Source: Limonium bicolor (lineage: Eukaryota > Streptophyta > Magnoliopsida > Caryophyllales > Plumbaginaceae). From it: a stretch of 64,000 nt of DNA. Made by a program: the position numbers and the translations under genes. Positions 16,874 through 64,000 of the stretch are shown piece after piece (the stretch's first letter is position 1; each line of letters starts with the position of its first letter). The stretch covers positions 93,684,839 through 93,748,838 of the forward strand of contig CM041778.1 of the NCBI GenBank assembly GCA_023374045.1. Reading direction: 5' to 3'. The notes under the pieces are model-generated. The model saw nothing but the letters and a program-made list of their open reading frames with translations. It was not told the origin of the DNA and did not search any database.

Positions 16874-16878
16874 ATCTA

Positions 16879-21695: not shown

Positions 21696-21723
21696 ATCAG
21701 AGCGATACTTCGCTCTGATACCA
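21696..21723 (-). promoter_or_regulatory. Primer binding site (initiator Met tRNA type) inside a hairpin
   Basis: On the minus strand TGGTATCAGAGC (21712-21723) begins five bases after the LTR end. It is the usual plant retrotransposon site complementary to the 3' end of initiator tRNA-Met. Ten bases of it belong to a perfect stem, ATCAGAGCGA-AGTA-TCGCTCTGAT (21696-21719), so the site can fold on itself. Confidence 0.85.
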
Positions 21724-21728
21724 CTTTT

Positions 21729-24700: not shown

Positions 24701-26138
24701 CCTCTCAAACTTCTTTCTTGTTTCCTTGTAAAACCGGTGGGGTGTTTGGTTGTTTGTCAACTTCTAAACAATGTACAAATAATAGAATGAGTATTCAAGC
24801 ATTATGCTTCATCTCATTGTAAACCCTAGTTACACATATTGTTTTAACACATTAAGGTAATTGTTTTACCTTGGAATTGGAAGAGGACTTGAACAAGTAT
24901 CAAGAGAGGACTCCTCCTAGCCCTTGGAAGATTCAAATGAAGCTAAAACAAGCAAGGTAAAGACACCATGGTGAGGTGAATTTTCGGTCATGTACTAAAA
25001 GGAGAGGAAACTTGATTTTTCTTTGAGATTCCTTACCTAGAAGCAAAGGAGAGTAATAATGTGTAGAAACACAAGCTCAAGCTCCATCAATGGTGATTCT
25101 CCATGGCACCAAAATTGAGCTCTTGAAGATTTGAAAAGGTAGAAGTGTAGAGCTTGACCTAACTAAGACAAATATGGTCTTAGAATTTGATTTGGAGCAT
25201 GGAGTTGGATTTGGCAAGGAAATGAAGATGGAGAAGAGAGGGCTGTTGCAAATCGTAAATGGAGGAAAGGAGAAGGTGAAGAAACCGTGTGAAATGAAAG
25301 AAGAGAAGGAAATGAGAAGATGAGTTTGCTTTTGGAGATATTTATGTTATAAAGCAAAATAGTACTTTACTTTAAGTTTTACTTTACTTATTTGATTTCT
25401 TTTACAACTTGGTGACTCACTACTACAAAAACCGGCCACCATTTAGTTAGAAGGGTAATATAGTCTTTATTGACCAATTTAATTACTTATAACATTATAT
25501 GTTACAAACTAGCTTATAAAAGTTACTATTCACAAACTAAGGCACATAGAAGTGAAATTTTTGATTTCCCATTAATATAGCCACCCAAATGTGATACTAT
25601 ATAGTACACATATTAATTAAAGAGTAATGATGGACATTTAGCCATTCAAAACTCATTTACAAGACAATTTTTCAAAAACGTGCTTTAAGACTCCTTAAAG
25701 CACATTTTGTGTTTTAACTTGTTTTCAAGCTTGGTTTTCTTTGGTAATTGATTTAATATGTTCATTAACATATTTATAAGGTATAGGTATGACCATTAGG
25801 TCTTATACAAATTTATTCCAAGCTTAGAGCACATTTTGCTCTTATTGACTTTAAGGTATTTCCTTGTGTTTTATTTGGTTTAACTGTCCACCAAAGTTTC
25901 CTAAGGACTTATTTAGTCCTATCAAATCATAATTAAATGTTATCAAGTCTTGGTAGGCTCTTTGGGTCCTAACCAAGTTCACTCATAGCTTAGAGCATGT
26001 TTTTGCTCAAACTGTGTCTTAATGTTTTATTGCATTTACTATGGTCTAAATTGTCCACTGATGTTACTAAGGCACTTTTTAGCCTTTACATACCATAGTT
26101 TGATATTTAAACCACATATCAAGGTTTGGGGTATTTCA
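21729..26138 (-). repeat. Middle LTR of tandem C cluster (4410 bp)
   Basis: It is shared between the two units: 5' LTR of the left unit and 3' LTR of the right unit. It is nearly identical to 31047-35442, mostly differing by one-base gains or losses in short runs. It holds the twin hairpin at 22107-22134, the hairpin array at 23646-23900 and the TATA palindrome at 25595-25606. No gene is present. Confidence 0.85.
23646..23900. repeat. Hairpin array in middle C LTR
   Basis: Four units of about 60-75 bp carry arms GTCCGAACTTG and CAAGTTCGGAC around a GTCCGGAC-containing loop, plus a last unit with CTTCC/GGAAG arm ends. The order is the reverse complement of 5941-6196. The matching array in the third LTR is 32960-33215. 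Confidence 0.75.
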
Positions 26139-34000: not shown

Positions 34001-35442
34001 TTACCTCTTTTCCTCTCAAACTTCTTTCTTGTTTCCTTGTAAAACCGGTGGGGTGTTTGGTTGTTTGTCAACTTCTAAACAATGTACAAATAATAGAATG
34101 AGTATTCAAGCATTATGCTTCATCTCATTGTAAACCCTAGTTACACATATTGTTTTAACACATTAAGGTAATTGTTTTACCTTGGAATTGGAAGAGGACT
34201 TGAACAAGTATCAAGAGAGGACTCCTCCTAGCCCTTGGAAGATTCAAATGAAGCTAAAACAAGCAAGGTAAAGACACCATGGTGAGGTGAATTTTCGGTC
34301 ATGTACTAAAAGGAGAGGAAACTTGATTTTTCTTTGAGATTCCTTACCTAGAAGCAAAGGAGAGTAATAATGTGTAGAAACACAAGCTCAAGCTCCATCA
34401 ATGGTGATTCTCCATGGCACCAAAATTGAGCTCTTGAAGATTTGAAAAGGTAGAAGTGTAGAGCTTGACCTAACTAAGACAAATATGGTCTTAGAATTTG
34501 ATTTGGAGCATGGAGTTGGATTTGGCAAGGAAATGAAGATGGAGAAGAGAGGGCTGTTGCAAATCGTAAATGGAGGAAAGGAGAAGGTGAAGACCGTGTG
34601 AAATGAAAGAAGAGAGGAAATGAGAAGATGAGTTTGCTTTTGGAGATATTTATGTTATAAAGCAAAATAGTACTTTACTTTAAGTTTTACTTTACTTATT
34701 TGATTTCTTTTACAACTTGGTGACTCACTACTACAAAAAACGGCCACCATTTTAGAAGGGTAATATAGTCTTTATTGACCAATTTAATTACTTATAACAT
34801 TATATGTTACAAACTAGCTTATAAAAGTTACTATTCACAAACTAAGGCACATAGAAGTGAAATTTTGATTTCCCATTAATATAGCCACCCAAATGTGATA
34901 CTATATAGTACACATATTAATTAAAGAGTAATGATGGACATTTAGCCATTCAAAACTCATTTACAAGACAATTTTTCAAAAACGTGCTTTAAGACTCCTT
35001 AAAGCACATTTTGTGTTTTAACTTGTTTTCAAGCTTGGTTTTCTTTGGTAATTGATTTAATATGTTCATTAACATATTTATAAGGTATAGGTATGACCAT
35101 TAGGTCTTATACAAATTTATTCCAAGCTTAGAGCACATTTTGCTCTTATTGACTTTAAGGTATTTCCTTGTGTTTTATTTGGTTTAACTGTCCACCAAAG
35201 TTTCCTAAGGACTTATTTAGTCCTATCAAATCATAATTAAATGTTATCAAGTCTTGGTAGGCTCTTTGGGTCCTAACCAAGTTCACTCATAGCTTAGAGC
35301 ATGTTTTTGCTCAAACTGTGTCTTAATGTTTTATTGCATTTACTATGGTCTAAATTGTCCACTGATGTTACTAAGGCACTTTTTAGCCTTTACATACCAT
35401 AGTTTGATATTTAAACCACATATCAAGGTTTGGGGTATTTCA
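31047..35442 (-). repeat. Right-hand LTR of tandem C cluster (4396 bp)
   Basis: This is the 5' LTR of the right unit. The twin hairpin is at 31428-31455, the hairpin array at 32960-33215 and the TATA palindrome at 34899-34910. It ends in GGGGTATTTCA at 35442 and is followed by D internal sequence instead of the B LTR that flanks the left side of the cluster. Confidence 0.85.
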
Positions 35443-36594
35443 AGTTGAATAACAATCAAGGAAAATGTACATATAGTAATCACCACGTCACAAAGCTCGA
35501 CAAGATAAAATCTGGAAAATGATAATTATGTGGTTGTTTGATATTTGACGTGGGAGGCCGAACTTGATCCTGGTCAGATCAAGGGAAAACCAAACACAAA
35601 ATGGAGTGGAAGGATAGTTCAACATTGATGTTGACCCCGACATGGTTGGATAATTCCTGAGACTCCCTACAAGTGGTCACAAATATTTCTGTGATACGTA
35701 GGTATTTATTCTTAAATCTAATATAAAATTTGACTAATAAGTATATGAGATGGAGAAGGTGTAAATTAAGAGTTAAATTGTCCAGGTTACCCTAAGGAGA
35801 TTAAATAGCTAAAACAACTCCGCGTATGTCGGAAAAATAGTCAATTGTGAGGGAAATACGAACTATTATTATACCATGAACCATGTTAATAAATTAAATA
35901 GTAAATCAAGAGACAATTACCTATAATAAAAGTATTCTCAAGCTACCTTCTAAGTTATGGCCAAATTTCCATCTGGAAGGAAAGATCGACTTCCATGTCT
36001 TTCTTTATGAATTCAAACCAATACATTAAATGGAAATCTACCTATAAACAGAGTGCAATATAAAGAGTAAAAACATTATACTAATACCCACATGAGGTGA
36101 ATCACAACCACAAGAACATGTTCAATTGAGAGGAAACTGTATCTTGTTAGGAACCTTAGCGGTAACCCTACTATGGTATACCTGATGGACCAACGATAGT
36201 AATCGTGTATATACTACTACCGACATTGGTGAATCAATAACATCAAGAAATCTTTCTATAATATACATAAGATGCATGGATCGACCATAGCTCATACCTT
36301 ACATAGAAAATGAAAACCGAATATGGTGACAGTAAACTCAAATACCAGAATCACAAGATGATGATCTGAAGATCAAAGATGGAGATTTTAAGTAAGTCCC
36401 AATGTTAATACAAGACCCGAGCGCCAACGATTACAATTACAAAAAGGCGATTAATGGAAGTGTGTTACACACGATAGTCTAAACAAGCCATAAGATAATA
36501 TTGACAATGTACATAATGATAGATCACATTCACCCCATACGTGAATCAATTATAAAAGCATACTAATGCACTATGAAACATGTCAGAGAGTGCA

Positions 36595-40700: not shown

Positions 40701-41246
40701 AGCTACAAGTATTTAAATGGCTAGTTTATAAAGTTATGTGGCTAAAATGTAAATTTTGAAAAGATTGGTGTGCTAAATATAAAAGCCGAGGGCTTAAGGA
40801 TTAATTTGGTATAATTATGGTATAATATAAGGTAGAATTAATATTATGAATTTTGGTGCATTTAAATAGGTGGTTAAGTGTCAAAATAACATTTTTATAA
40901 AGTTTTGGACTATTTTGTAAATATTGGAAACTATGGTGTATGGCCGAGAATTACATATGAATTTATGGTATATTAAAGTATTATTATGAAATAAGTCTTG
41001 GTCAAATGTTGACCAAAAACTTTGGGTTAAAATGATTTATGACATAAAATATTAAGTTTATAAAGTCTAGGGCGAATAGGTAATTTATAGAAATTATTAA
41101 GAAAAACCGAATTGGACAAAGGGTGGAATGTAATTTATAAAAGTATATGGCCAATTCGGTTATTTGAAATTAAATATTAAAACTATAGTTTATAAGTTAT
41201 ATGTAATTTATATAAAGTTTTGAGGATTAATTTATGAATATAAGAG
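37797..41246 (+). repeat. 3' LTR of element D, first part
   Basis: It begins with TGAAATACCCC and has no coding content. The sequence is AT-rich, and related sequence is at 8259-8778. It is interrupted at 41246 by element A and resumes at 55752. A hairpin-prone GC-rich spot lies at about 38058-38100. Confidence 0.75.
41242..41246. repeat. Target site duplication of element A (left)
   Basis: AAGAG directly precedes TGTAACACCCC and is repeated exactly at 55752-55756 after GGGGTATTTCA. A 5-bp duplication is normal for Ty3/gypsy integration and shows that A is a single intact insertion. Confidence 0.9.
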
Positions 41247-41743
41247 TGTAACACCCCAACCGCTAATCCCATGCTTACCGTCTAATCGTCCTGTTAATCC
41301 TACGAGTTCGCAGCGGAATATTACTACTCACTACGGCGGGTGGTACAACGCCGCTAACCGCCCATACGGCTAGCTAGGCTTACCTTACTTACATTCACGG
41401 TCTGATGCACATAGTGTACCGAGCTACTAAATTACTTACCAAAATACCATATATCAAATACTTACATCCAAGGATCACCGAGTATTTAAAGTATTCAATT
41501 ACAACCTTTCAAGCTTACAAAAGAATGAGTTTCTAAGGCTACTCATCTATACCCCAATCCAATACTTCCACTAACCAAAAAGGTGTACCCCATGGTACAC
41601 CGGCTAACAAACTTACAGCCGTGTACTACTTAGTACACCAATCATGAATTCATTGTTTACAATCCAAAAGAAAGACAAGGAAATTAAACTTCAACTCTCT
41701 TAGTCTTCATCCTTCACAAGTACCTACGTGTAGTAAAAATGGT

Positions 41744-41768
41744 GCCCCAAGGGGCTCAGCAAACGCTG
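41744..41768 (-). other. Twin hairpin of A LTR
   Basis: GCCCC-AA-GGGGC is followed by CAGC-AAAC-GCTG (plus strand); the copy in the other LTR is at 52241-52265. It is the A version of the pair found in B and C LTRs. Confidence 0.5.
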
Positions 41769-42822
41769 CGTATAAACTCCGCATATACCGCGTGCTAGCT
41801 AGGGCACGCCGACTATTTGACGTCCACTAAACATGCTGTTCATTATTTCATACATACATGCTTGCATACAACATATATTCATTCACAACACATTATTCAT
41901 TCCAAGGCAACAATACAATAATGCTCACAATACTTACCTTCGCAAGGTTAGCCAAATTATGCATCCGGTTAATCGGAGTGCTTATTACTCTTTTACTCAT
42001 TACACATACTTACACATCTCTTTCATACTTTACTTGCTTACCTTTCCATACTCATTTACTTGCTCTTGCTTACTCATACTTACTTACTCATACTCATGTT
42101 AACCGTTTGGACCTCTGGGCAGGGACTACGCCGTCCCACCACCGGCTTTACTTGACTCACCAATCCGGGATGCTACCCATTTAAGGGATTTGGGCCGCGG
42201 ACCAGTTAAGAGTCAGGAATTGGAGCCAACCTCTCGTGACTCCGCATCCTCACGCGTGGCCGAAACTATATCGGACTTCTACTCATTCCAATTTAATTAC
42301 CAATTTAAGTTAGATTGGTTAGCTTGTTAGGAATAAGTTAGAAGTCCAACACATTCACAATCGGTCACAGTACATTGCAACATTCATACAAGCATTCATA
42401 TACATCCATACATTTCATGAATTATACAAACTAAATTTAAAGACAATATACAACAATATACAACACTACATATTCACAAGTAAACATGATAACTCCGATT
42501 CGTGCATTTATCTTATTTGGTGATCAATTAGCACACAACACACAAATCAGAGTAACCAAGATAGCATACGGGGCATGAGGAATCCATACCGTTCACCGTC
42601 GTACGTGTTCCCAAACGTCCTTCGGTGTCACAAATCAAATCCTATTATATATGTACAATTGAATGATTATTAACTATCATCAACTTAACTCCTACTTATC
42701 AATGTCCTTATACTTCTTACACTTACACTTTACTTACTTATTTTTCATTACTTAAGTTTTACTTCCTTACTTAATTTGGCATACTCACATACATGTACAT
42801 ACATCTATATATGTAGGTATAC

Positions 42823-42842
42823 ATATATATATATATATATAT
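42823..42842. repeat. AT microsatellite
   Basis: (AT)10 in the left LTR of A; the counterpart in the right LTR, at 53331-53358, is longer. Confidence 0.9.
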
Positions 42843-42885
42843 TATTTAATTTAATAATTTTTTTTTCTTTTTTTTTTTACTGGAC

Positions 42886-43345
42886 CGGACTTGCGACCGA
42901 CCTTGCAAGTCCGGTCCATTCCAGTAGCTCACATTACCGAATTTCTGGCCGACCGAACTTGCAAGTCCGGTCGTAAGTTCGGTCCATTCCAGTAAGTTTG
43001 GTTTCGAAATTCTGGAGTCGACCGACCTTGCATGTCCGGTCCCAAGTCGGTCCATTCCAGTAAGTTTCGTTACAGGCGAATTTTAGCCCGACCGACTTGC
43101 AAGTCCGGTCGCAAGGTCGGTCCATTCCAGTAGCTTACTCAACGGAAAATTTTGAGTCGACCGACCTTGCAAGTCCGGTCGCAAGGTCGGTCCATTCCAG
43201 TAGGTTACAGACGGGAGAATTTTCTAGTCCGACTGAACTTGCAAGTCCGGTCGCAAGTCCGGTCGATTCCAGAAGCTTCCCGTCTTTGTAAATCTGGGCT
43301 CGACCGAACTTGCAAGTCCGGTCGCAAGTTGGTCCGCCCAGTATT
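42886..43345. repeat. Hairpin array in left A LTR
   Basis: Seven units of about 60-65 bp follow a T run. Most share the loop AAGTCCGGTC and the spacer CATTCCAGTA. Some arms have lost a base relative to the right LTR (for example near 43091 and 43329), which breaks the stem in this copy. Confidence 0.75.
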
Positions 43346-45189
43346 TGCATTTTATTTCTGTTTTCAGTCCCTCTTCTTACCCATTACTTCCCCATTGTTC
43401 CTACACTTAATCCCACATGTTTTAACACTAATTAAACCTCTTAATACACCCTAGTTCACTCCTTAACTCTTTACACAATTCTATACTAATTCACTCACAT
43501 AATTTTCCAAGTTTCTTTTCAACACTCACCTAGTTTCTTCTCTAGTTGCATTATGCTACAGATTTTAACACTTATACTCCTCTTCTACATCTCCCTCTTC
43601 TATTGACATTTCTAGCACCTCTAATACATTATAACTACATTAACTATCTCTCTCAACTTACCCTCTATTTTCCTCAACAAAATCTGTTACACACACACAC
43701 ATTAGTCACCTAGTTTCTAGTTCACTAAGTGTTCTAATTCTAGGCAAATTTTGCCATAGTCTCCCCTACATTTTTACACTCTCACCACATTGTTTACACT
43801 CTCATTATCACTATCCCACCTGTTTATATACACAACCATATCCAAGCTCCCATATACAATACCAATACTAAACACGTCAAAAATTCCTGCACTCACATTC
43901 CAATCCCAACTATGTTTTAACAGTTTTTAAAATGTCTTTTAAGGATTCAAAATACTTATATTCTCCTACACATTACACTACCAATACATTACCATTTTAC
44001 AATACATGTTTTTACTTCTAAAAATCTGTTACATACTCATTTAACAGCTATACAAAGATGAGCTTAATTACCTTTTTTCCTCTTCTAGTTTCCTCCTCTT
44101 CTTGCTTCTTCCTTCCTCTCTTTCTCCACCGGTTCAACAACACAAGTTCTCTACTCTACAACCCATATACATACACATTTCAATACACTAGAAACTAACC
44201 CTAACTATTATTAAGTTTTAAGTAGGTTTTAGGGTTTAGAATTTATTTTACCTTCCAAGGGTGTAGGAGCTGTTTGGGTTAGCTCAAGAACAATATTTCC
44301 TCTCCTCAAACAGCCAAAATCGGCTAGAACAAAGGGAACAAACAAGGGTTTAGTCAAATTTTTGTTTTGCCCACAAAGGCTAGAAAGAGGTGGAGTTTCA
44401 AGAATTTTTTACCTTAAAAGAACAAGGAGAAGAAGGTGGTGCTAATGGTGGTCTTGAAGCTCCAAATGGGACATACCCATAAAAACGAAAGTTCTCCTTT
44501 TTGATTTTTGAGAAGAGGGAAATGTTGCTCTTCTTGAGGAGAGGATGACAATGATGTAATTTTGGAAGAGATTTGAGGGGGTTACAAGATGAGAGAAGTT
44601 AGTATTTTGTGTGGCTTTCTTTTCCCATGGGGTGACCGATGAGGAAAAGAAGAAGAAAAAAGAGGGTGCTGGTGAGGGGTATTACGTGAGTGAGGATAGA
44701 ATGGAGAGGAGAGAGAGTAAAAGTGAGGTGTGTAGTTACTTTATTATTTTTGTCTTTTATTATAGAGGAGAGTGTGAGAGAGTGTGAGGGGGGGAATAAA
44801 TTGGACCACTGCACACACACACACATGTACATTTTATTTTCAATAGTGGACACATAAGTGTGTTATTTATATTTCTAACCCACAACTTCCCGTTTTTGAC
44901 AGTTTTTACTTAATCTCTCGTTTCTTGATTTTTATTGGTTCTAAAGCTTCACTAATATTTATTAATGATGATTTAGTTGACCAAAATTGTTACGAGTCAT
45001 TTGACCCATAAAGACACGTTTTCCCGGTTACCTCGAAAAATGCGCTTTAGGTTCGTTAGTGATTTTAATCCATTTTACGATCCGTTTCTTCGGGATTTGT
45101 TCCCTCATGATTATTTATACTTAATTAAGCCTCTAAATTATTCATTGGCCTAATTAATCACTATTTTAATTACGGGGTATTTCAATCTA

Positions 45190-45639: not shown

Positions 45640-45790
45640 TATGAACAGCTGTGGGTACTTAGCCTTCATGGCATTTCCAACTCCCATGTCGCTTCTTCGA
45701 CATCATTGTTTGACCATAGGACCTTCACCATTCGTATAGACTTATGGCGAGTGTCTCTGGTCTTCCTATCATGGATTCTCACTGGGGTTT
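45640..45790 (-). other. Chromodomain of element A pol
   Basis: The aromatic and acidic pattern VKVLW...ATWE behind the integrase identifies a chromovirus. The last residues are KYPQLFID before the stop. A one-base loss after ATWELE changes the frame in this copy. The B copy (61061-61245) has the same domain uninterrupted. Confidence 0.85.
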
Positions 45791-46543
45791 CAACATATCA
45801 CATGGTTGGCTCGATGGATAATCTCTCGGGCTCTAGCACATGAGAAGGATCAGCAATGTACTTCTTGAGTTGTGACACATGAAATACATCATGGACACGC
45901 CCCAAGTCCTCAGGTAATGCTAACCTGTAGGCTACGGATCCCACTCTTTCGGTAATAGTGTACGGCCCTACAAACTTTGGGCTTAGCTTGCCCTTCTGAC
46001 CAAAACGGAAGACACCCTTCATAGGTGAAACTCGCAAGAACACTTGGTCGCCCACGGCGAACTCAAGGTCGCGTCGTCTCACATCCGTATAGATTTCTGT
46101 CTATCTTGGGCTGCCTTCATGTTAGCTCTAATCTGCTGCACTTCCGCTTGCACTTCCTCAAGATACTCCGGTCCTATTATGACCGCTTCACTTGACTCAT
46201 CCCAACACAAGGGGTACGGAAAGGTCTACCGTATAGAGCTTGGAAAGGCGACATCTTAATCGAGGCATGATAACTATTATTATACGAGAACTCGATAAGG
46301 TGAAGCTTATCTAACCAACTCCCCTGAAAGTCTAAGGTACATGCCCGAAGCATGTCCTCCAGTGTTTGGATGGTCCTTTCTGTCTGACCGTCGGTCTGAG
46401 GATGGAAGGCGGTACTCAACTTCAATTCTGTACCCAACGCTTCCCTTGTAGCTCTCTAGTATCTCGAAAGAAATCTGGTGTCGCGGTCAGATACTATAGT
46501 CTTAGGGACTCCGTGGTGTCTGATAATCTCCTTGTCGAATAGC

Positions 46544-47077
46544 TCAGCTAGCTTTACTACCTTCCAGGTGTCCTTCATCGGTATGAATCTGGCAACCTTG
46601 GTAAGGCGATCGACTACAACCCAGATCAATGTTGAGTCCTCCCCTGGCAGGTGGGAGTCCTACAACAAAATCCATGGTGATATCATGAAATTTCCACTCC
46701 GGAACTGGCATCGATTGTACCATTCCGCCCGGTCTACGGTGTTCGAATTTTACCTTCTGGCATGTCAAGCATATCAATACAAATTCCGTCACATCTGATT
46801 TCATTCCATACCACCAGAAGTACCTCTTCATGTCTTTGTACATCTTGGAGGCTCCCGGATGGACTGACAATGTGGAACAGTGTGACTCTCGCAGGATGCG
46901 ATCCCTTAGCTCAGCATTGCTTCGGGGGACGCATAGCCTGCCATTCAACCGAATCAAACCATCTTCATGTAGCTTGAAGTCATACTTCTTCTTCTCAAAT
47001 GTACCATTCTCGATCTTGTGTCTGATTTTGGTTAGGTAAGGGTCGCTCAACTGAGCGTCTCGCACCTCGTCAACCAA
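46544..47077 (-). pseudogene. Integrase N-terminal and core region of element A
   Basis: A 177-codon open stretch carries the zinc-binding region (conserved His around SVHPGASKMYKDMKR, then CLTCQKVK) and the beginning of the catalytic core (KFHDITMDFVVGLP). It shifts frame before the second catalytic Asp. This whole section is absent from the B element. Confidence 0.85.
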
Positions 47078-48456
47078 GCTAGAAGAAGTGAGTAGCGAAT
47101 GGAGCGAGTGTGCTCGACGGCTCAGGGCGTCGGCTACGATGTTTGCTTCCCTTCCTTATACTACAAGTTGATGTCGTAGTCAGAAAGAAATTCCATCCAT
47201 CTTCTCTGTCTCAAATTCAGTTCTTTCTGTGTGAATACATACTGTAAGCTCTTATGGTCGGAGTAGATGGTGATGCTTACCCCATAGAGATAGTGTCACC
47301 ATATCTTCAAGGCGATGACAATGGCTCCTAACTCTAAGTCGTGAGTCGGGTAATTCTCCTCATGCTTTTTCAGCTGGCGGGAGGCATATGCTACAACCTT
47401 GCCATGCTGCATGAGTACGCATCCCATTCCCTTGCCTGATGCAATCACAATATACCTCAAATCCCTCTGTGCCCTCTGGAAGAGTAAGGACGGGCGCTGA
47501 GGTCAATGAGTCTTTCAGTTTCTGAAATGATAACTCGCACTCGGTTGTCCATACAACGGTGCATCTTTCTTCATCAGTGTAGTCATGGGCTTGGCGACTT
47601 TCGAGAAGTCCCTTACAAAATCTCCGGTAGTAACCGGCTAGACCAAGAAAGCTCCTAATTTCGGTAACCGTCTTAGGTCTAGGCCATGATCGTACAGCTT
47701 CTATCTTAGAAGGGTCAACCGAGATACCTGCGCTCGAGATGACATGTCCAAGGAATGATACCTAATCAAGCCAAAACTCGCATTTGGAGAACTTCACATA
47801 CAGCTGGTTCTCGCGCAGTGTCTCAAGTACTTTCCTCAAGTGAGTTTCATGTTCCTCTGCTGATTTGGAATATACAAGTATGTCGTCGATGAAGACAACA
47901 ACCGAAGTGTCCAACTGCTCACTGATAGTCGATTCATGAGGTCCATGAATTTAGCTGGTGCATTTGACAAACCGAATGGCATCACTGTGAATTCGTAGTG
48001 GCCATATCTGGCACGGAATACCGTTTTCTCAATGTCTTGTTCCTTGATTGCAATTTGATGATACCCAGAACGGAGGTCAATCTTGGAGAAGACTGATGCT
48101 CCTTTCAGCTGGTCGAATAGGTCGTCGATGCGTGGCAATGGGTATTTGTTTTTTACTGTGACCGCATTCAGCTCGCGGTAGTCAATACAAAGTTGAGGCT
48201 ACCGTCCTTCTTCTTCACGAAGAGAACCGGTGCTCCCCAGGGTGATACGCTCGGGCGTATAAACCCTTTGTCTAGAAGGTCTCTTAACTGCTCTTTTAGT
48301 TCGGTCATTTCTGCAGGTGCCATGCGGCACGGTGCCCTAGCAATGGGACCGGTACCTGGCAATAGATCAATTTCAAATTCCACTGCTCTCGGTGGTGGCA
48401 TGCTGGGTAGCTCCTTAGGGAATACGTCGGGAAATTCGGATACAATCGGTACATCA

Positions 48457-49006
48457 TCACTGAACTCTGGATCTCTCTCCAGGTCTTGTATATAACACAG
48501 GTATACTTCTTGGCCCTCTGAGCTCCCGGTACATGGCCATAGCAGATATAAGCGTGGTCGAAGGCTCTCTCGGTCTCTGGCGGTAAGATACGGTAACCCC
48601 AGGAGGACTCTTGAGCAGCAAACGATGCTCGGCGCAGAGGATTCTACCCTTGTGCCGCTCCAACCAATTCATTCCAATGATTAAGTCGAATCCCAATCCA
48701 TTGAATTCGATGAAGGAAATGGGAAACGATTCGCCTTTGATTTGGATTGTAGCTGATTGATAATACTTGGTGCACTTTACTCGCTCTTCTTTGGGAGAGT
48801 AACCATGAAGTTCTAGTAGCTCATCCGCATCTAGCTTCAACCTCTTCACAAAGATGGTGATACGAAGGTGTGAGAGGCGCCGGAGTCGAATAACACATTG
48901 GCATCAATGCTATTTACTGGGAATGTTCCCGTTAAGATGGTGCCGCTTCTGCCAACTTGTGCTTCGGTGAGGATGCTCAGGTTACCTTCGGTACCGAGTC
49001 CACAAC
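48457..49006 (-). pseudogene. Retroviral-type aspartic protease region of element A
   Basis: After a putative 3' splice site the frame runs GLGTEGNLSILTEAQ and reaches the active site VLFDSGASHTFVS, then shifts and continues with GMNWLERHKGRILCAEH, a conserved stretch of plant Ty3/gypsy protease-linker regions. The protease cuts the Gag-Pol precursor. The matching B region is 63170-63941. Confidence 0.85.
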
Positions 49007-50041
49007 CTATTGGATTCATAATTGGATAAGTGTTGATGGTGGACACAAGTTGAATTAAATCAACACTGCTCTTTATTGATAAACCAACCATCATACATAC
49101 CGTGTCTCTAATACACGTTACTAATAGATTACATGATACTATAAATTTAATACTTTCTAAAGGTAAGGTTCAGGCGTCCTGGTTTCATGTGTGTGGCATT
49201 GATTATTGCCGGCGGTGCCGTATTCAACTTGATCTTGTTGATCCAGTGATACATCATCCTAGAGTTTCCACCCATGATTAGGACATCTCCTGATCTCAAT
49301 ACCAGTTTCTGTGAGAGGTCCACACGCTTCTGCTCGCTATACAGGAATACGGCGTCATCACCAATGGACCAAGACACTACGGGCACTCCTTGTTCAAGAG
49401 ATTCCGCTGTCTCGTCCTTGTCTTGGTGTAACCCAAGTCGTCCTTCTTTCTCATAGAAGTTGACGATACAGAGATCCGCTTCAAGTGCGGGGATCGGTTC
49501 AGGTTCACATTGTTGTGCTAGTTCCACTGCTTGTGTGACGGGTGTCTGAAACTCTGGTGGTATTGTCGGTGGCGTCGCTCCATCTTGTGTTCGTGTCTCC
49601 TGGTATGTCTTGGTATAAGGATTCTAGTCCTTTCCCAAGCACATCATTTTTAGCTTCATCTTCGCTCCACCGGGGAATTCGGGTGTGTGAAATCCACCTT
49701 GACCCGTTCCTAGCTCGTTGCATCGTCGAATGATGGAGATTTGCGCTTCGGGTGTCAGGTATCCCCTTAATAAGATCATACCTGGTCGGATGACCTGACA
49801 CTGTTCGTTGGTGTAGTCATGGTTGGTGATGCCGATCTCTTCTTGATTCAAGTTTACCAGTATCGGATAACAGATACTAAAGCTTCCTATGGTTATAAAT
49901 TTCATCTCCGGTGAGTACTAGTTTCAACTACTTCATTTCATGCTTAATACACACTTCATTTTATTTACTCATGCATTCATTCAAACGGTTACTCTACTAC
50001 TTAGACATGCTACTTCAAGGATTAAAGGTTTAGATTATTAC
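49007..50041 (-). other. Candidate 1035-bp intron enclosing the AlkB-like frame
   Basis: On the minus strand the donor reads CCCAG|GTAATAATC (intron starts at 50041) and the acceptor CCAATAG|GTTGTGG (intron ends at 49007). Gag upstream is open in the frame that ends CCA G before the donor, apart from one TAG at 50100-50102. Protease downstream begins with GT TGT GGA, so removal gives the codon GGT and keeps Gag and protease in one frame. Without splicing, the Gag frame stops a few codons into the intron. B has an equivalent acceptor (ATTAG|GTTATGG, intron end 63942). No transcript evidence is available. Confidence 0.6.
49147..49905 (-). CDS. AlkB-type 2-oxoglutarate/Fe(II) dioxygenase (plant ALKBH1-like), one in-frame stop
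   Basis: The single frame of 252 codons starts at an ATG four codons after a stop. Residues 38-94 hold the N-terminal fold signature of plant ALKBH1-like proteins (RPGMILLRGYL, then GGFHTPEF and MMCLGKD). The iron ligands are His160 and Asp162 in LGLHQDKDE and His220 in RMMYHWINK; the 2-oxoglutarate-binding arginines are in GRLNLTFRKY (Arg244, Arg250). The frame ends at the normal C-terminus of the family. Codon 94 is TAG where relatives have Trp (TGG), so this copy is interrupted unless that base is an error or the stop is read through. No introns break the frame, which suits capture from an mRNA. AlkB proteins oxidatively remove methyl groups from RNA or DNA. Its place between gag and protease, on the element's coding strand, suggests an element-borne function; the substrate cannot be told from sequence. 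The family call is secure; the role is inference. Confidence 0.88.
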
Positions 50042-51514
50042 CTGGGCCGGATTTAGAACCGGACCCATCACGGTCTATGACATGAAGGACAGGCTGCCTC
50101 TAAGGTGCACCCCGCGGAGGTCCCCGGGATCCTAGTCCCTGTGGTGCCTGCTGGGTCGGTGCATCGCCCGATGCAACCTCCTTGCCTTCCCTCTGCCTGT
50201 AGCTTTGGTAGTTCCCCTTTGGCTTGGCATATTCTGGGCAAAATTGGCTCGGTGCCCGGGCTTCTGACAATTGTAGCACCGGATTTCTCTCCCTTGGCAA
50301 TCCTTGCCGGGGTGGTCTTGATTGCACCTTCGGCACATGTAGCTGCGGCTGTCAGGATAGCTCTGGTGGGACCGGAGCCAGAACCTAAGGTTTAGAGGGT
50401 TAGCATATTTGTGCGTGGATATACTAGATATGGTACTGATATGAATACGAATTAGAAATAGAAGTTTACCCTTAGGTGGGTATGATCTCAGTGGCTTTGC
50501 TGCCACCGGTACAGATGAACCGAGTTGAAGAAGTTCAACCGGTTTGCCCTGCTCAGCATGGCACTACTTTCACTCGGGAATTTCTTTTGGGATTGCTGAA
50601 AGAAATTTCCCTTCTTCTTTTTCCAGCTTTTACCCTGGTTCTGCTCCTCGCCATTGGTATTCTTATTGTTGGCCTTGCGCTTCAGCGCGGTCTCTTCATC
50701 CCTTAATTGGCAAGTGATTTCAACGCGAGAAGCCGCGTGATAACACTCCTGAAGTTTCAGGTATTAGCCGGGATTCTCATTTAAGAAGGATAAGGAAAGA
50801 TTCAAAGAATTCAAGGAATTTAAAGAATCGAATTGATACTAGGGGCTAACTGACATTTACCTGAAGGGAGGTAAATCTGGTGTAGCCCATACCGTACCGA
50901 AGGCGATGGCTCAGACCGCCATAGAAGCGATCGACCAACACCTGGCCGGTGTATCCAAATCAGGTAGAAGACGGAGAATGGAGGTAAAGGTGCGGTAGTA
51001 CTCATCGACAGACATCTTCTCTGTCATCTTCAAGGCGTCCAGCTCTATCCTTTTCTTAGTTTTCACATGCTCCGGATAGTATTTTGAATGGAGGAGAGGT
51101 GCAAAGGACTCCCAATCGAATGTGGGGTCGTTGACGTGCTCATGCTTGACTAGCTTCCACCAATCCATGGCTGCGTCTTTGAGGTAGTAGGCTGCTACTC
51201 TGACTCGAACTCCAGCAGGGCTTCGAGGGTTTCAAAGGCTGTCTCCATCTCGGAGATATAGGCCTCTAGCTTAGCCGGATCACTCTCGCCCCTAAGCAAG
51301 GAGGGCGGAGTTCCGCTACAGCTTTTACCCAGTTCGCTTCTCTGGGTGGCGGGGGAGGGATTGGTCCCGCTTGAGTTTGATGGTTTTGTTGCATAACGTT
51401 GATTACTTGTGGTAGCATCTGCGCTACCGTGGCGGCGACGATCTCAGCTATCGTCTGCGCGCCGGGTCCGTCATTGCCCCCTCCTCTAGGGCGACCTGGA
51501 CCTCTTCCTGACAT
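50042..51514 (-). pseudogene. Gag of element A, frames broken
   Basis: It starts with MSGRGPGRPRGGG at 51514, a common opening for chromovirus Gag. The capsid-type region (retrotransposon gag family) is seen as AMDWWKLVKHEHV and YYPEHVKTKKRIELDAL at about 51170-51020. Two zinc knuckles follow near 50350-50260: CRRCNQDHPGKDC, and CYNCQKPGH whose last Cys is replaced or lost by a frame change. The frame changes at least three times and a TAG lies at 50100-50102 before the candidate splice donor. Gag forms the particle that packages the RNA. The Met at 51514 is chosen as the first ATG in the proper frame, about 210 bases after the primer site. Confidence 0.85.
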
Positions 51515-51709: not shown

Positions 51710-51735
51710 CAGAGCGTTACTACGCTCTGGTACCA
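51710..51735 (-). promoter_or_regulatory. Primer binding site of element A inside a hairpin
   Basis: On the minus strand TGGTACCAGAGC (51724-51735), five bases from the LTR, differs by one base from the initiator-Met site TGGTATCAGAGC. It overlaps the stem CAGAGCGT-AGTA-ACGCTCTG (51710-51729). In C elements the last pair is A:T instead of T:A, with both arms changed. Confidence 0.8.
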
Positions 51736-51740
51736 CTTTT

Positions 51741-53326
51741 TGTAACACCCCAACCGCTAATCCCATGCTTACCGTCTAATCGTCCTGTTAATCCTACAGA
51801 GTTCGCAGCGGAAATATTACTAATTACTACGGCGGGTGGTACAACGCCGCTAACCGCCCATACGGCTAGCTAGGCTTACCTTACTTACATTCACGGTCTG
51901 ATGCACATAGTGTACCGAGATACTAAATTACTTACCAAAATACCATATATCAAATACTTACATCCAAGGATCACCGAGTATTTAAAGTATATTCAATTAA
52001 CCTTTCAAGCTTACCAAAAGAATGAGTTTCTAAGGCTACTCATCTATACCCCATCCAATACTTCCACTAACCAAAAAGGTGTACCCCATGGTACACCGGC
52101 TAACAAAACTTACAGCCGTGTACTACTTAGTACACCAATCATGAATTCATTGTTTACAATCCAAAAGAAAGACAAGGAAATTAAACTTCAACTCTCCTAG
52201 TCTTCATCCTTCACGAGTACCTGCGTGTAGTAAAAATGGTGCCCCAAGGGGCTCAGCAAACGCTGCGTATAAACTCTGCATATACCGCGTGCTAGCTAGG
52301 GCACGCCGACTATTTGACGTCCACTAAACATGCTGTTCATTATTTACATACATACATGCTTGCATACAACATATATTCATTCACAACACATTATTCATTC
52401 CAAGGCAACAATACAATAATGCTCACAATACTTACCTTCGCAAGGTTAGCCAAATTATGCATCGGGTTAATCGGAGTGATTATTACTCTTTTACTCATTA
52501 CACAATACTTACACATTCTCTTTCATACTTTACTTGCTTACCTTTCCATACTCATTTACTTGCTCTTGCTTACTCATACTTACTTACTCATACTCATGTT
52601 AAGCCGGCGGCATGGCCTCTGGGCAGGGACTACACCGTCCCACCACCAGGCTTTACTTGACTCACCAATCCGGGATGCTACCCATTCAAGGAATTTGGGC
52701 CGCGGACCAGTTAAGAGTCAGGAATTGGAGCCAACCTCTCGTGACTCCGCATCCTCACGCGTGGCCGAAACTATATCGGACTTCTACTCATTCCAATTTA
52801 ATTACCAATTTAAGTTAGATTGGTTAGCTTGTTAGGAATAAGTTAGAAGTCCCAACACATTCACAATCGGTCACAGTACATTGCAACATTCATACAAGCA
52901 TTCATATACATCCATACATTTCATGAATTATACAAACTAAATTTAAAGACAATATACAACTATATACAACACTACATATTCACAAGTAAACGTGATAACT
53001 CCGATTCGTGCATTTATCTTATTTGGTGATCAATTAGCACACAACACACAAATCAGAGTAACCAAGATAGCATACGGGGCATGAGGAATCCATACCGTTC
53101 ACTGTCGTACGTGTTCCCAAACGTCCTTCGGTGTCACAAATCAAATCCTATTATATATGTACAATTGAATGATTAATATAACTATCATCAACTTAACTCC
53201 TACTTATCATGTCCTTATACTTCTTACACTTACACTTTACTTACTTATTTTTCATTACTTAAGTTTTACTTCCTTACTTAATGTTGGCATACTCACATAC
53301 ATGTACATACATCTATATATGTAGGT

Positions 53327-53362
<36 letters not shown>

Positions 53363-55751
53363 TAATTTAAATATTTTTTTTTCTTTTTTTTTTTTGACTG
53401 GACCGGACTTGCGACCGACCTTGCAAGTCCGGTCCATTCCAGTAGCTCACATTACCGAATTTTTCTGGCCGACCGAACTTGCAAGTCCGGTCGCAAGTTC
53501 GGTCCATTCCAGTAAGTTTTGGTTTTGAAATTCTGGAGTCGACCGACCTTGCATGTCCGGTCCCAAGGTCGGTCCATTCCAGTAAGTTTCGTTACAGGCA
53601 AATTTTAGCCCGACCGACCTTGCAAATCCGGTCGCAAGGTCGGTCCATTCCAGTAGCTTACTCGACGGAAAATTTTTGAGTCGACCGACCTTGCAAGTCC
53701 GGTCGCAAGGTCGGTCCATTCCAGTAGGTTACAGACGGGAGAATTTTCTAGTCCGACCGAACTTGCAAGTCCGGTCGCAAGTCCGGTCGATTCCAGAAGC
53801 TTTCCCGTCTTTGTAAATCTGGGCTCGACCGAACTTGCAAGTCCGGTCGCAAGTTCGGTCCGCCCCAGTATTTGCATTTTAATTTCTGTTTTCAGTCCCT
53901 CTTCTTACCCATTACTTCCCCATTGTTCCTACACTTAATCCCACATGTTTTAACACTAATTAAACCTCTTAATACACCCTAGTTCACTCCTTAACTCTTT
54001 ACACAATTCTACACTAATTCACTCACATAATTTTCCAAGTTTCTTTTCAACACTCACCTAGTTTCTTCTCTAGTTGCATTATGCTACAGATTTTAACACT
54101 TATACTCCTCTTCTACATCTCCCTCTTCTATTGACATTTCTAGCACCTCTAATACATTATAACTACATTAACTATCTCTCTCAACTTACCCTTCTATTTT
54201 CCTCAAACAAAATCTGTTACACACACACATTAGTCACCTAGTTTCTAGTTCACTAAGTGTTCTAATTCTAGGCAAATTTTGCCATAGTCTCCCCTACATT
54301 TTTACACTCTCACCACATTGTTTACACTCTCATTATCACTATCCCACCTGTTTATATACAACAACCATATCCAAGCTCCCATATACAATACCAATACTAA
54401 AACAACGTCAAAATTCCTGCACTCAACATTCCAATCCCAACTATGTTTTAACAGTTTTTAAAATGTCTTTTAAGGATTATAAAATACTTTTATTCTCCTA
54501 CACATTACACTACCAATACATTACCATTTTTACAATACATGTTTTTACTTCTAAAAATCTGTTACATACTCATTTACAAAGCTATACAAAGATGAGCTTA
54601 ATTACCTTGTTTCCTTCTTCTAGTTTCCTCCTCTTCTGCTTCTTCCTTCCTCTCTTTCTCCACGGTTCAACAACACAAGTTCTCTACTCTACAACCCATA
54701 TACATACACATTTCAATACACTAGAAACTAACCCTAACTATTATTAAGTTTTAAGTAGGTTTTAGGGTTTAGAATTTATTTTACCTTCCAAGGGTGTAGG
54801 AGCTGTTTGGGTTAGCTCAAGAACAATATTTCCTCTCCTCCAACAAAGCCAAAATCGGCTAGAACACAAGGGACCAAACAAGGGTTTAGTCAAATTTTTG
54901 TTTTGCCCACAAAGGCTAGAAAGAGGTGGAGTTTCAAGAAGATTTTTACCTTAAAAGAACAAGGAGAAGAAGGTGGTGCTAATGGTGGTCTTGAAACTCC
55001 AAATGGGACATACCCATAAAAACGAAAGTTCTCCTTTTTTATTTTTGAGAAGAGGGAAATGTTGCTCTTGAGGAGAGGATGACAATGGTGTAATTTTTGG
55101 AAGAGATTTGAGGGGGTTACAAGATGAGAGAAGTTAGAAATTTTTGTGTGGCTTCTCTTTTCTCCATGGGTGACCTATGAGGAAGAAGAAGGAAGAAAAG
55201 AAGAGGGTGCTGGGTGAGGGGTATTACGTGAGTGAGGATAGAATGAGAGGAGAGAGAGTAAAGTGAGGTGTAGGTAGTGTAGTTACTTTATTATTTTTGT
55301 CTTTTATTAATAAGAGGAGAGTGTGAGAGAGTGTTAGGGGGGGGGGGGAAATAAATCGGACCACTGCACACACACACACACATGTACATTTTTATTTTCA
55401 ATAGTGGACACATAAGTTTGTGTTATTTATATTTCTACCCCACAACTTCCCGTTTTTGACAGTTTTTACTAATCTCTCGTTTTCTTGATTTTTATTGGTT
55501 CTAAAGATTCACTAATATTTATTAATGATGATTTAGTTGACCAAAATTGTTACGAGTCTATTTGACCCGCTTAAAGACACGTTTTCCCTGTTACCTCGAA
55601 AAACGCGCTTTAAGGTTCGTTAGTGATTTTAATCCATTTTAAGGATCCGTTTTCTTCGGGATTTGTTCCCTCATGATTATTTATACTTAATTAAGCCTCT
55701 AAATTATTCATTGGCCTAATTAATCACTATTTTTAATTACGGGGTATTTCA
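51741..55751 (-). repeat. 5' LTR of element A (4011 bp)
   Basis: It is the partner of 41247-45184. It contains the twin hairpin 52241-52265, the AT run 53331-53358, the hairpin array 53401-53870 and a 12-G run at 55337-55348 (7 G in the other LTR). The promoter must lie in this LTR, but I cannot place a start site. Confidence 0.9.
53401..53870. repeat. Hairpin array in right A LTR, with compensating stem changes
   Basis: There are seven units of 60-65 bp. Unit 1 is GACCGGACTTGC-N10-GCAAGTCCGGTC (53401-53434). Unit 2 is GACCGAACTTGC-N10-GCAAGTTCGGTC (53471-53504). Unit 3 has GACCGACCTT with AAGGTCGGTC (53541-53574). The two central stem positions vary (GA, AA, AC) and the other arm always complements them. 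Most units share the loop AAGTCCGGTC. A T run lies on one side, an A run in transcript sense. Confidence 0.8.
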
Positions 55752-55756
55752 AAGAG
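55752..55756. repeat. Target site duplication of element A (right)
   Basis: AAGAG, identical to 41242-41246. Confidence 0.9.
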
Positions 55757-60786: not shown

Positions 60787-61018
60787 ACATATGTGCTTAA
60801 CCATTCACGGTACTCAATTCCCTTAATCTTAACACCACATCTTATATTCACATTCACACATCTCAAGACTCAAAGGTCAATCTCAAATACAATACATAAG
60901 TATTATACATAACTCAAACTTAACACCAAAGTGTAGCAGCTTACACAAATTCACATCTTAAACAACCAAACAAACGACAAACATGATCGTTTCCTAACTC
61001 AAAAGCGAGGAAGCTCTA

Positions 61019-61048
61019 CCCCCCTTAAAAGGGGTACGCCCCGTACCC
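61019..61048 (-). promoter_or_regulatory. Inner polypurine tract and hairpin of element B
   Basis: GGGTACG-GGG-CGTACCC on the minus strand (61032-61048) precedes CCTTTTAAGGGGGG (purines near 61019-61026). It starts 12 bases after the pol stop codon. Confidence 0.6.
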
Positions 61049-61060
61049 TATACAAACGAT

Positions 61061-61245
61061 CTAGTCAGTAAACAAAGAAGGGTAATTCACCCTCATCTTA
61101 TCCTCTAATTCCCACGTAGCCTCTTCAACATCCTGGTTAGACCAGAGAACCTTCACCAGTCGCACTGACTTATGGCGAGTGTCCCTAGTCTTACTGTCCA
61201 AGATTCTCTAGGAGTCTCCACTGATCTCATATTTGGTTCTAAACT
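61061..61245 (-). other. Chromodomain of element B pol
   Basis: An uninterrupted stretch includes RLVKVLWSNQDVEEATWELE followed by KYP-like NYPSLFTD and the stop. Chromodomains of this class guide chromovirus integration to particular chromatin. It is better kept than the copies in A and D. Confidence 0.85.
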
Positions 61246-63169
61246 CAACCTCTCAGGTTTTAACACATGGGAGGGGTGGTGCATGTATCTCTTTAGCTGT
61301 GAAACATGAAAAACATTATGCACTTTACCCAAATCATAGGTAAATTCAACCTGTAAGCAACCGGGCCCACCCGCTCCGTAATCTCATAAGGACCAACAAA
61401 TTTCGGGCTTAATTTGCCCTTCTGCCCAAACTGAATACACCTTTATCGGTGAAACTCGCAGAAATACCTGGTCGCCCACTGCGAACTCTAGGTCCCGTCG
61501 TCGAACATCAGCATACGACTTCTGCCTATCTTGAGCAGCCTTCATGTCTCCCTGATTTGCTGACTTCAGCCTTAACTTGCTCTAAGTACTCTGGTCCTAC
61601 AATGACCGTCTCACTCGACTCATCCCAGCAGAGCGGTGTACGACATGGTTTACCGTACAACGCTTGAAAAGGTGCCATCTTGATCGAAGCGTGATAGCTG
61701 TTGTTGTATGAAACTCGATCAGATGTAGTCTATCAATCACTGCCCTGGAAGTCTAAGGCATATGCCTCTCAGCATGTCCCGAGTGTCTGAATAGTCTCGC
61801 TCATTCCTTACCATCTGTGTGAGGATGGAACGCGTACTCAGCTTCAGTCTATACCCAACGCTCTTTCTGGTAGCTCTCCAGTACATCGAAAGGAATTTTG
61901 TATCTCTACTCTCTCTGACACTATGGTTCTTCGTATCCCGGATGTCTCACTGATTTTCTTTCTCAAATACTCAGCTAATTTGGTCCCATTCCAAGTATCC
62001 TTCATCGTTATGAACTAGCGAATGGAGTGATTGGTGCTCGACGGCTCAGGGCGTCTGCTACAACATTGGCCTTCCCCTCTTTGTATTGGAGGTCAATGTC
62101 ATAGTCTTTCAAAAAACTCTAACCTCTCCTCTGTCCGAAGGTTCAACTCCTTCTAAGTGAACTAAGGATCTCAACTCTGGTGATCGGTGTAGTGAATCTT
62201 CACACTAACCCCGATAGGTATTTCAAACCACCATATCCTTCAAATCGAAAGACTACAACTCCCACTCTAACTCATGTGTGGGGTATTCTCCTCATGTTTC
62301 TTCAACTGGCGTAGGGCATATGCCACCACCTTGCCATGTTGCATAAGCATGCAACCCAAACCCTCTAACCCGATGCCATCACAATAAACCTCAAAGCCCT
62401 CTGTACCGTCTGGAATGGTCAGAACCGGTGCAGTGGTCAGTGAGTCCTTCAAGCTCTGAAATGATCTCTCACAGTCAGCCGTCCACAAGAACGGTGCTCC
62501 TTCATCAGACTGGTCATCGGTTTCGCGACCGACCTTGCTGAAATCCCTAACAAACCTCCTGTAGTAACCTGCCAGACCGAGAAAGCTCCGGATGTCGGTA
62601 ACAGTCTTCGGTCTTGGCCAAGTACGTACGGCATCAATCTTTGCTGGATCCACTGAGATCCCAGCATCTGAATGACATGACCTAGGAAAGAGACCTGGTC
62701 AAGCCAAAGCTCACATTTGGAGAACTTAGCATATAGCTGGTTCTCCCTCAATATTTCCAATACCCTCCTCAGATGTTCCTCATGTTCAACTTAGATTTCG
62801 AGTATATCAAAATGTCATCAATAAACACCACAACCGACTTGTCCAGCTGCTCCCGGAACAGCGGTTCATCAGATCCATAAACTTCGCCGGTGCGTTCGAC
62901 AAACCGAACGGCATCACTGTAAACTCATAGTGGCCGTATCGTGTCCGGAATGCCGTCTTCTCAATGTCTCCCTCCTTAATGGCTATCTGATGATACCCCG
63001 ATCTGAGATCAATCTTGGAGAACACAGATGCTCCATTCAACACTGATCGAACAGATCGTCAATGCAGGGTAGTGGGTACTTATTCTTCACTGTCACTACA
63101 TTAGCTCTCCTGTAGTCGATGCAGAGGCGGACTACCATCCTTCTTCTTCACGAAGAGGACTGGCGCTCC

Positions 63170-63775
63170 TCATGGTGACACACTTGGTCTTATAAATCCC
63201 TTATCTAACAAATCTTTCAATTGTTCCTTTAACTCAGTCATTTCTGCCGGAGCCATACGGTATGGTGCCTTGGCTATCGGTCGGTACCAGGTAGCAGCAT
63301 CGATGGTGAACTCTACCTCCCGAGTGGGTGGCATGCCAGGCAGTTCCCGTGGAAATAAGTCGGGGAACTCCGACACTACCGGTAAGTCGGGGTCGAACTC
63401 AGGGTCTCTCTCTATGTCCTGTACATAGCAGAGGTACACTTCTTCCTTTCTCCTTAATTCCTTATACTTTGCAATATCGGTGATGATCTTAGTCGAAGGC
63501 TCTCTGGGCCTCTGGTGGTATGATATTGTTACCCCAGACGGACTCCTGAGCAGCAATCTATGCTCGGCGCAGAGGATACGTCCCTTGTGCCGCTCCAACC
63601 AGTTCATCCCGAAGATAACATCAAATCCTAGCTCACTGAACTCAATAAAACTGACTGGAAAGTCTTCTCCCTTAATTCTGACAGTGGCTCCTCGGTAGTA
63701 ACGAGTGCAACGAACCTTCTCCTTAGACGGGAGCGTAACCTTGAAGTCGGGTAGCTCATCAGCGTCTAGCCCCAC
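63170..63775 (-). CDS. Open stretch of B pol: protease C-terminal part to start of reverse transcriptase
   Basis: 201 codons are open without a break. They contain EFSELGFDVIFGMNWLERH, the AEHRLLLRSP stretch, an acidic linker (RDPEFDPDLPVVSEFPDLFP) and the first reverse-transcriptase motif (MAPAEMTELKEQLKDLLDKG). It is a segment of the polyprotein, not a separate gene; the ATG at 63775 is internal. Frame changes occur on both sides. Confidence 0.85.
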   Translation of the reverse strand: MGLDADELPDFKVTLPSKEKVRCTRYYRGATVRIKGEDFPVSFIEFSELGFDVIFGMNWLERHKGRILCAEHRLLLRSPSGVTISYHQRPREPSTKIITDIAKYKELRRKEEVYLCYVQDIERDPEFDPDLPVVSEFPDLFPRELPGMPPTREVEFTIDAATWYRPIAKAPYRMAPAEMTELKEQLKDLLDKGFIRPSVSP

Positions 63776-63941
63776 CTGCTCGCGAAAGAAGCCCAGACAA
63801 AGGTATGCGAGGCCCCTGAGTCGAAGAGAACTGATGCCTCAATCCCATTAATCGGAAAGGTGCCGGTGAGGATAGTACCGCTGGCGTCGGCCCGTGCCTC
63901 TATAAGTATGCTTAACGCACCTTCCGTACCAAGTCCATAAC

Positions 63942-64000
63942 CTAATTGTGTTCACAAGCTTCATGAGTATTGATGGTATAACAAGAGTCGTAACAATTTT
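63942..64000 (-). other. Candidate 3' end of the B intron
   Basis: Upstream of ATTAG|GTTATGG the sequence (minus strand) contains CCATCAATACTCATG, similar to CCATCAACACTTATC at the same place in A (near 49040). Similarity to A therefore continues into the part of the A intron that lies after the AlkB stop. Confidence 0.45.

Follow-up and report, generated by a model that had tools for sequence, protein, structure and literature searches.

The Element and its AlkB Gene

We analyzed a 64,000-nucleotide stretch of Limonium bicolor DNA (contig CM041778.1 of assembly GCA_023374045.1, positions 93,684,839 to 93,748,838; hereafter, the window), which contains a long terminal repeat (LTR) retrotransposon carrying a gene for an AlkB-type dioxygenase between gag and protease. 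The AlkB frame lies at 49147–49905 on the minus strand (252 codons plus stop), where a preliminary sequence-only reading had placed it. One in-frame stop follows residue 93, and all five cofactor ligands are present (His160, Asp162, His220, Arg244, and Arg250). The open 158-residue part of the frame matched PF13532 with an E value of 2e-34.

The element measures 14.5 kb and is coded on the minus strand. Its LTRs are about 3.9–4.0 kb each and bear TG...CA termini (5′ LTR, 51741–55751; 3′ LTR, 41247–45184, 96.1% identical to the other LTR). They are flanked by the perfect 5-bp target-site duplication AAGAG (41242–41246 on the left, 55752–55756 on the right), as had been read earlier. The primer-binding site TGGTACCAGAGC, which we take to resemble the initiator-Met tRNA, adjoins the 5′ LTR (51724–51735). 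In the coding orientation, Pfam matches place gag 5′ of AlkB and the protease (PR), reverse transcriptase (RT), RNase H (RH), and integrase (INT) 3′ of it. Gag includes a capsid region (50911–51231, PF03732, E 1.6e-12) and a zinc knuckle (50132–50563, PF00098). The protease, with the start of the pol exon (48457–49006, PF08284), is followed by the RT in pieces (47762–48198, PF00078), the RH region, likewise in pieces (47296–47761, PF17917 and PF17919), the zinc-binding region of INT (46544–47155, PF17921), and its C-terminal SH3-like module (45798–46100, PF24626, E 3.3e-27). The LTRs, the target duplication, gag, and the PR–RT–RH–INT order are those of a Ty3/Gypsy element. A chromodomain remnant lies 3′ of INT (45666–45797, PF00385, E 3.7e-4); this is a weak match in a frame-broken copy, scoring 20.8 bits against the Pfam cut-off of 25.1. 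By sequence, the element is probably a chromovirus.

The Kimura two-parameter (K2P) distance of the LTR pair is 0.0194; if rates of 7e-9 to 1.3e-8 are assumed, this corresponds to an age of about 0.75–1.4 million years. The window's copy has decayed, with open frames of only 19 codons of gag before the predicted splice donor and 52 codons of pol after the predicted second acceptor. A second locus (L018, G000:C6:176097000-176106999) is nearly identical to it, with 21 mismatches and 75 gap openings over 10 kb. L018 has the same AlkB stop and a similarly short gag frame, despite the LTR K2P of 0.019 in the window. The two may be products of a duplication, or else others may have helped a broken copy to spread. 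Both LTRs of the window element contain a short tandem repeat (53401–53870 and 42894–43335).

Copies and Families in the Genome

The genome searched comprised 2.92 Gb. In a DNA search with AlkB, the best 40 of 3,283 loose candidates were scored, and all 40 matched at 97% identity or more; this search gives no copy count. A search with PF13532 yielded 38,326 loose candidates. Its best 150 were scored, which provides neither a copy count nor an intactness rate; all 150 exceeded the curated cut-off, and 149 had no stop in the domain.

Four families carry AlkB between gag and pol, with 68–74% amino-acid identity of AlkB across families. Family A consists of the window element and 19 loci from the 40 most similar. 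Family B is one copy (L011). Twenty loci from the best 150 (L031–L050) were grouped by the sequence at acceptor 1, the putative splice site preceding AlkB, into families C (15 loci) and D (5 loci). The family B copy is the second element of the window: its pol (61013–64000, minus strand, DNA about 72% identical) runs off the window end, and its AlkB, which is open, lies just beyond (64098–64832 on the window scale; L011 minus 2937–3671). The order of gag end, AlkB, and protease start was found in all of the first eight copies examined, on contigs C1, C3, C5, and C6. An assembly chimera is ruled out by this shared order at many loci and by the further families at other loci. The sequence-only reading had asked how often AlkB takes this position, and had named a single, neutrally decaying copy or a chimera as the outcomes that would speak against it. 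The gene turned out to be recurrent, in many copies of families A–D and under purifying selection (see below).

The element AlkB has about 245 residues. The iron ligands (HxD...H) and the 2-oxoglutarate ligands (RxxxxxR) are kept in 41/41, 41/41, 39/40, 40/40, and 40/40 of the aligned copies, in sequence order; His220 is the residue missing from one copy. At G000:C1:497439466-497470353, four equal-scoring AlkB matches are spaced by 10,121, 10,043, and 10,097 bases, which suggests a tandem array of elements; L048, located there, belongs to family C.

We consider it probable that these copies represent a Gypsy-type, probably chromovirus, lineage with a selected ALKBH1-type AlkB in a likely intron, the RNA of which would be alternatively spliced. 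Joining the gag donor to the acceptor before protease (acceptor 2) would give Gag-Pol, and joining it to acceptor 1 would give a predicted Gag-AlkB fusion. The Gag part may bring AlkB into particles, where the predicted demethylase would act on the element's own nucleic acids.

Affiliation and Putative Substrates of the Enzyme

Among PDB entries, the best match of a natural open copy (P0001) was rice OsALKBH1 (5xeg, E 3.2e-73), followed by E. coli AlkB (E about 3e-21) and mammalian ALKBH1 (E about 6e-11). A fold was predicted for a relative, P0003, rather than for the window protein (predicted local distance difference test, 85; predicted template modeling score, 0.82). This model matched OsALKBH1 (5xeg/5xoi) with 51% identity, a target template modeling (TM) score of 0.90–0.91, and an E value of 5e-29, whereas zebrafish ALKBH5 gave an E value of 3.6e-8 and a target TM of 0.59. 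The fold ranking of the model equals the sequence ranking: OsALKBH1 comes first and E. coli AlkB second, and ALKBH5 is placed far down. By closest fold and sequence, the element AlkB belongs to the plant ALKBH1 (OsALKBH1) branch, its nearest known enzymes are not those of the ALKBH5/9B kind, and an ALKBH5-type identity is rejected. The earlier description of the gene as ALKBH1-like and element-borne is borne out by this best match and by the position of the gene between gag and protease at many loci.

In two database searches, the best 120 of 1706 and the best 120 of 2609 matches were all from plants where named, many of them ALKBH1-like or AlkB-like, and no viral AlkB appeared among those bearing names. 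For a viral origin of AlkB, one scan of IMG/VR returned two weak matches over 29 residues. In the main tree of 51 proteins (7 element-type and 44 host-type from 173, 42 with plant names), the element AlkBs formed one clade with P0002, P0003, P0004, and P0006, at a support of 100/100 and separate from the host-type proteins. A quicker tree of 122 rows (115 others plus P0005) gave the same element clade. We infer that P0002, P0003, P0004, and P0006 are element-borne. P0122 from Artemisia annua, despite its high score against the element profile, is a host gene in which the domain is duplicated; neither tree includes it.

The element proteins share the cofactor ligands with OsALKBH1. They differ from the plant ALKBH1-type host proteins in lacking the long N-terminus and in forming their own clade. 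Around residue 184, the element-type proteins share GDDA, in place of the GDSA of most host ALKBH1-type proteins compared; this is a possible mark of a changed substrate or partner.

Our best guess is that the enzyme acts on N-methylated or alkylated bases of single-stranded RNA, of the RNA:DNA hybrid, or of the minus-strand DNA made in reverse transcription. This guess draws on the activity of OsALKBH1-type enzymes toward N6-methyladenine (6mA) in unpaired DNA and R-loops, and on that of E. coli AlkB toward single-stranded lesions. We take the protein of 5xeg to be the product of the rice gene considered next, by shared name only. Rice ALKBH1 is reported to remove 6mA from single-stranded or R-loop DNA (PMC10469495). 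AlkB-bearing Gypsy elements are known from Phalaenopsis orchids (Gypsy_Pa_2799, PMC9289625). Tentatively, the proposal may be taken further: a lineage separate from the orchid one may long have made Gag-AlkB by alternative splicing. The ALKBH1-type demethylase in every particle would then rid the RNA template, the RNA:DNA hybrid, the single-stranded cDNA, or even the tRNA primer of methylated or alkylated bases during reverse transcription.

A serious rival, which we nevertheless regard as unlikely, is that the enzyme erases N6-methyladenosine (m6A) from RNA and releases the RNA of the element from methyl-dependent sequestration, a role that ALKBH9B plays for ONSEN (PMC12786077) and that has been proposed for the orchid elements. 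The sequence-only reading had offered this role. The AlkB fold and ligands are present, and the orchid protein is active in vitro (PMC9289625). However, the enzyme is ALKBH1-type, with the P0003 model fitting OsALKBH1 (TM 0.90) far better than ALKBH5. An m6A eraser is thus no longer the first guess from the enzyme branch, although it is retained as an alternative.

It seems improbable that the target of AlkB lies in the host, be it 6mA in chromatin, R-loops, or silencing factors, instead of in the element's nucleic acids. Rice ALKBH1 does affect R-loop 6mA and the binding of Polycomb repressive complex 2 (PMC10469495), but the predicted Gag fusion would locate AlkB in particles.

A Predicted Donor and Two Predicted In-Phase Acceptors

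The element had been described as otherwise ordinary. This does not hold for the region around AlkB, which lies in an intron-like segment with two acceptors. In family A, the gag frame ends at CCCAG/GTAATA (slashes mark predicted splice junctions), AlkB is preceded by ACCATAG/GAAGC, and protease by CCAATAG/GTTGTGG, all in phase 1. A motif search located both acceptors in every one of the 20 copies and the donor in 19. In the window, the last gag exon base before the donor is 50042, and 49006 is the first base past acceptor 2. The predicted full intron between them (49007–50041, minus strand) has 1,035 bases and encloses AlkB. The predicted short intron, from the donor to acceptor 1 (49887–50041), has 155 bases, and the gag–AlkB join would be in phase 1. 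The predicted AlkB exon extends from acceptor 1 to the AlkB stop (49147–49886); these limits derive from the aligned copies.

The layout recurs in the other families. The family B copy has the donor GAGGCCAG/GTACC, acceptor 1 CACTTTAG/GAAGC, and acceptor 2 CAATTAG/GTTATGG, in the same phase. In families C and D, the donor CCAG/GT is present in 19/20 copies, AG/G at acceptor 1 in 20/20, and acceptor 2 in 19/20; 16 of these copies have AlkB in phase with acceptor 1, and the other 4 have it frameshifted. The DNA similarity between families A and B starts no more than 3 bases from acceptor 1.

If the RNA were left unspliced, the gag frame would close 6 codons beyond the donor in 19 of the 20 donor-bearing copies of families A and B, and 8 codons beyond it in the other. 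In family D, the first Met is at codon 75 of the AlkB exon in 4/4 copies open to the AlkB stop (5 examined), and in the family B copy a TGA closes the pol frame four codons before acceptor 2. Therefore, translation from an ATG on unspliced RNA would not yield the full AlkB in those family D copies, nor pol from acceptor 2 in that family B copy. AlkB likely sits in an intron between gag and pol.

Several points count against this layout. The use of acceptor 1 is suggested by sequence comparison, just as splicing of the element RNA is deduced here from genome sequence. The acceptor-1 tracts are purine-rich in families A and C and do not look strong by eye. In most copies of family A, an ATG is retained 6 codons upstream of acceptor 1, so that AlkB could be translated independently there. 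On this basis, AlkB might be made as its own protein through internal initiation or re-initiation, with a fortuitous acceptor-1 signal. In families A and B, Met43 could begin a nearly complete domain. We doubt this explanation: an internal start at Met43 is weakened by family D, with its first Met at codon 75, and neither the onset of A–B similarity within 3 bases of acceptor 1 nor the AG/G in all 20 family C and D copies fits a fortuitous signal.

Copies without the Predicted Intron

The 23-base gag–protease junction expected from splicing to acceptor 2 was used as a query against the genome, allowing up to 3 mismatches, with the reversed sequence as a control. The junction occurred at 9 places, exactly at 4 of them, and the control at none. 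In 9/9 copies, the pol flank starts exactly at the junction, with 85–95% identity to AlkB-bearing copies (over only 184 bases for L057). The gag flank (70–88%) reaches the junction or comes within 3 bases of it in 8/9 copies. The intron sequence had no match in any of the nine. One copy is open over its whole 2.2 kb, with 376 codons before and 357 after the junction. We read these copies as resulting from intron loss through a spliced RNA, as their sequences suggest.

A pol tree was built from the first 900 bases, with 22 rows, including eight of the nine intron-less copies (L057 was dropped for its long branch) and eight of the 20 family A rows. Support is 100/100 for the grouping of the intron-less copies with family A, and AlkB is present in the outgroup families B, C, and D. 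The fewest changes on this tree are two. Because the outgroup families have AlkB at the same site and in the same phase, its presence predates the point at which the intron-less copies branched off.

This reading also has its difficulties. The gag alignment of L058 stops well short of the junction. The intron-less copies could partly represent the pre-insertion state, since the AGGT...AGGT boundary resembles a 4-base duplication as well and the tree allows one loss plus one regain. We give little credence to the stronger version, in which they are AlkB-free ancestors and a single block of AlkB plus flanks was inserted afterwards. The join would fit an insertion at an AGGT site, and the pol tree arranges these copies as a ladder below family A, but the presence of AlkB at the same site and phase in families B, C, and D speaks against it.

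Selection on AlkB

The dN/dS ratios (nonsynonymous over synonymous divergence) were calculated by the Nei–Gojobori method with our own script. Between families, the dN of AlkB is 0.157–0.208, whereas dS ranges from 1.47 to saturated; at such high dS, the ratio is only roughly known, with finite values of 0.04–0.12. Reading the AlkB region in a wrong overlapping frame gave dN above dS. Element-borne AlkB, for which a selection check had been proposed earlier, is under strong purifying selection between families. Chance capture with neutral decay is ruled out, with dN far below dS.

The comparison of families A and B sets this constraint against that of the other genes. For pol, the lowest dN is 0.03, in 60 codons of RT, and other pieces reach about 0.2, with 0.18–0.19 for a 130-codon piece; values up to 0.36 occur where the paired open frames seem frameshifted relative to each other. 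For gag, dN is 0.22–0.47. Based on these pieces, the constraint on AlkB is similar to that on pol and stronger than that on gag.

Some counts are less easily reconciled with a selected gene. The AlkB frame runs uninterrupted between acceptor 1 and the AlkB stop in 8 of the 20 family A stretches, and in 11 of the 20 family C and D stretches taken from the best 150 matches. The 16 copies compared within family A show 26 nonsynonymous and 21 synonymous differences, a per-site ratio of about 0.35, together with 3 stop changes. We read this weak constraint as the decay of young copies. That AlkB is a mere passenger, a host gene captured once and decaying without a role, would suit the weak constraint among young family A copies and the many broken copies, that of the window included, but is highly improbable given four families with near-saturated synonymous sites, a dN of 0.16–0.21, and kept ligands, and with 149 of the 150 best-scoring matches (of 38,326 candidates) lacking a stop in the domain.

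Other Repeats in the Window

At lower window coordinates than the element, two overlapping 11-kb stretches (15030–26139 and 24292–35443) are 95.6% identical at an offset of about 9.3 kb, and 33603–35443 additionally matches 15030–16874 at 89%. These stretches form a tandem arrangement of another repeat, perhaps an element array with common LTRs.

Relation to Known Systems

Whether such elements had been described before was left open by the sequence-only reading. AlkB-bearing Gypsy elements have indeed been published, from orchids (PMC9289625), but those differ in lineage, AlkB branch, and layout. The orchid study screened 121 plant genomes and reported the domain in no other species. Among the papers listed by full-text searches of open PMC, which leaves out most subscription journals and bioRxiv preprints, none, judged by title and the opening of the abstract, describes another AlkB-bearing LTR element. 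In the portions consulted, AlkB or oxoglutarate does not occur in two reviews of extra open reading frames (ORFs) (PMC7264820, PMC6317226), and a sunflower Tekay study (PMC11728184) covers extra ORFs with no occurrence of AlkB or dioxygenase. What is new here is a second AlkB-bearing lineage, another AlkB branch, and a donor with two in-phase acceptors in all four families.

If the proposal is true, two unrelated lineages with two AlkB branches would point to a general pressure on the nucleic acids of retroelements, from methylation of bases or from alkylation damage. The conservation across four families dates AlkB carriage further back than a recent capture. With a splice architecture of the likely kind, an extra enzyme could be added without breaking Gag-Pol, and the model predicts an exact RNA and an exact protein. 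The many natural copies allow ligand loss, decay, and spread to be compared.

The orchid 2-oxoglutarate-dependent dioxygenase Gypsy elements resemble the present ones in being Gypsy-type LTR elements of high copy number, with an AlkB-fold gene and all cofactor ligands (PMC9289625). The orchid element is related to Tat/Ogre, measures 25.5 kb, and has a primer-binding site for tRNA-Arg (PMC9289625), whereas the Limonium element is a probable chromovirus of 14.5 kb with the site TGGTACCAGAGC. In the orchid element, gag-pol is one ORF and AlkB lies in a separate ORF2 of 565 residues; here, the shorter AlkB is located between gag and protease, in a likely intron. The orchid AlkB is ALKBH5-like with demonstrated m6A activity (PMC9289625), and the one described here is ALKBH1-type, as judged from its sequence.

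Plant RNA viruses (Alpha- and Betaflexiviridae, Closteroviridae; PMC9289625) offer the parallel of a mobile RNA replicator with its own AlkB. They are, however, RNA viruses, and their AlkBs are not among the nearest relatives (the best 120 of 1706 and of 2609 matches). For the expression strategy, the spliced intron of Ogre is the precedent: a segment between ORFs is removed from part of the transcripts, which restores one polyprotein frame (PMC6317226), as is predicted here. Unlike that of Ogre, the segment in the Limonium element separates gag from protease, encloses AlkB, and offers a second acceptor.
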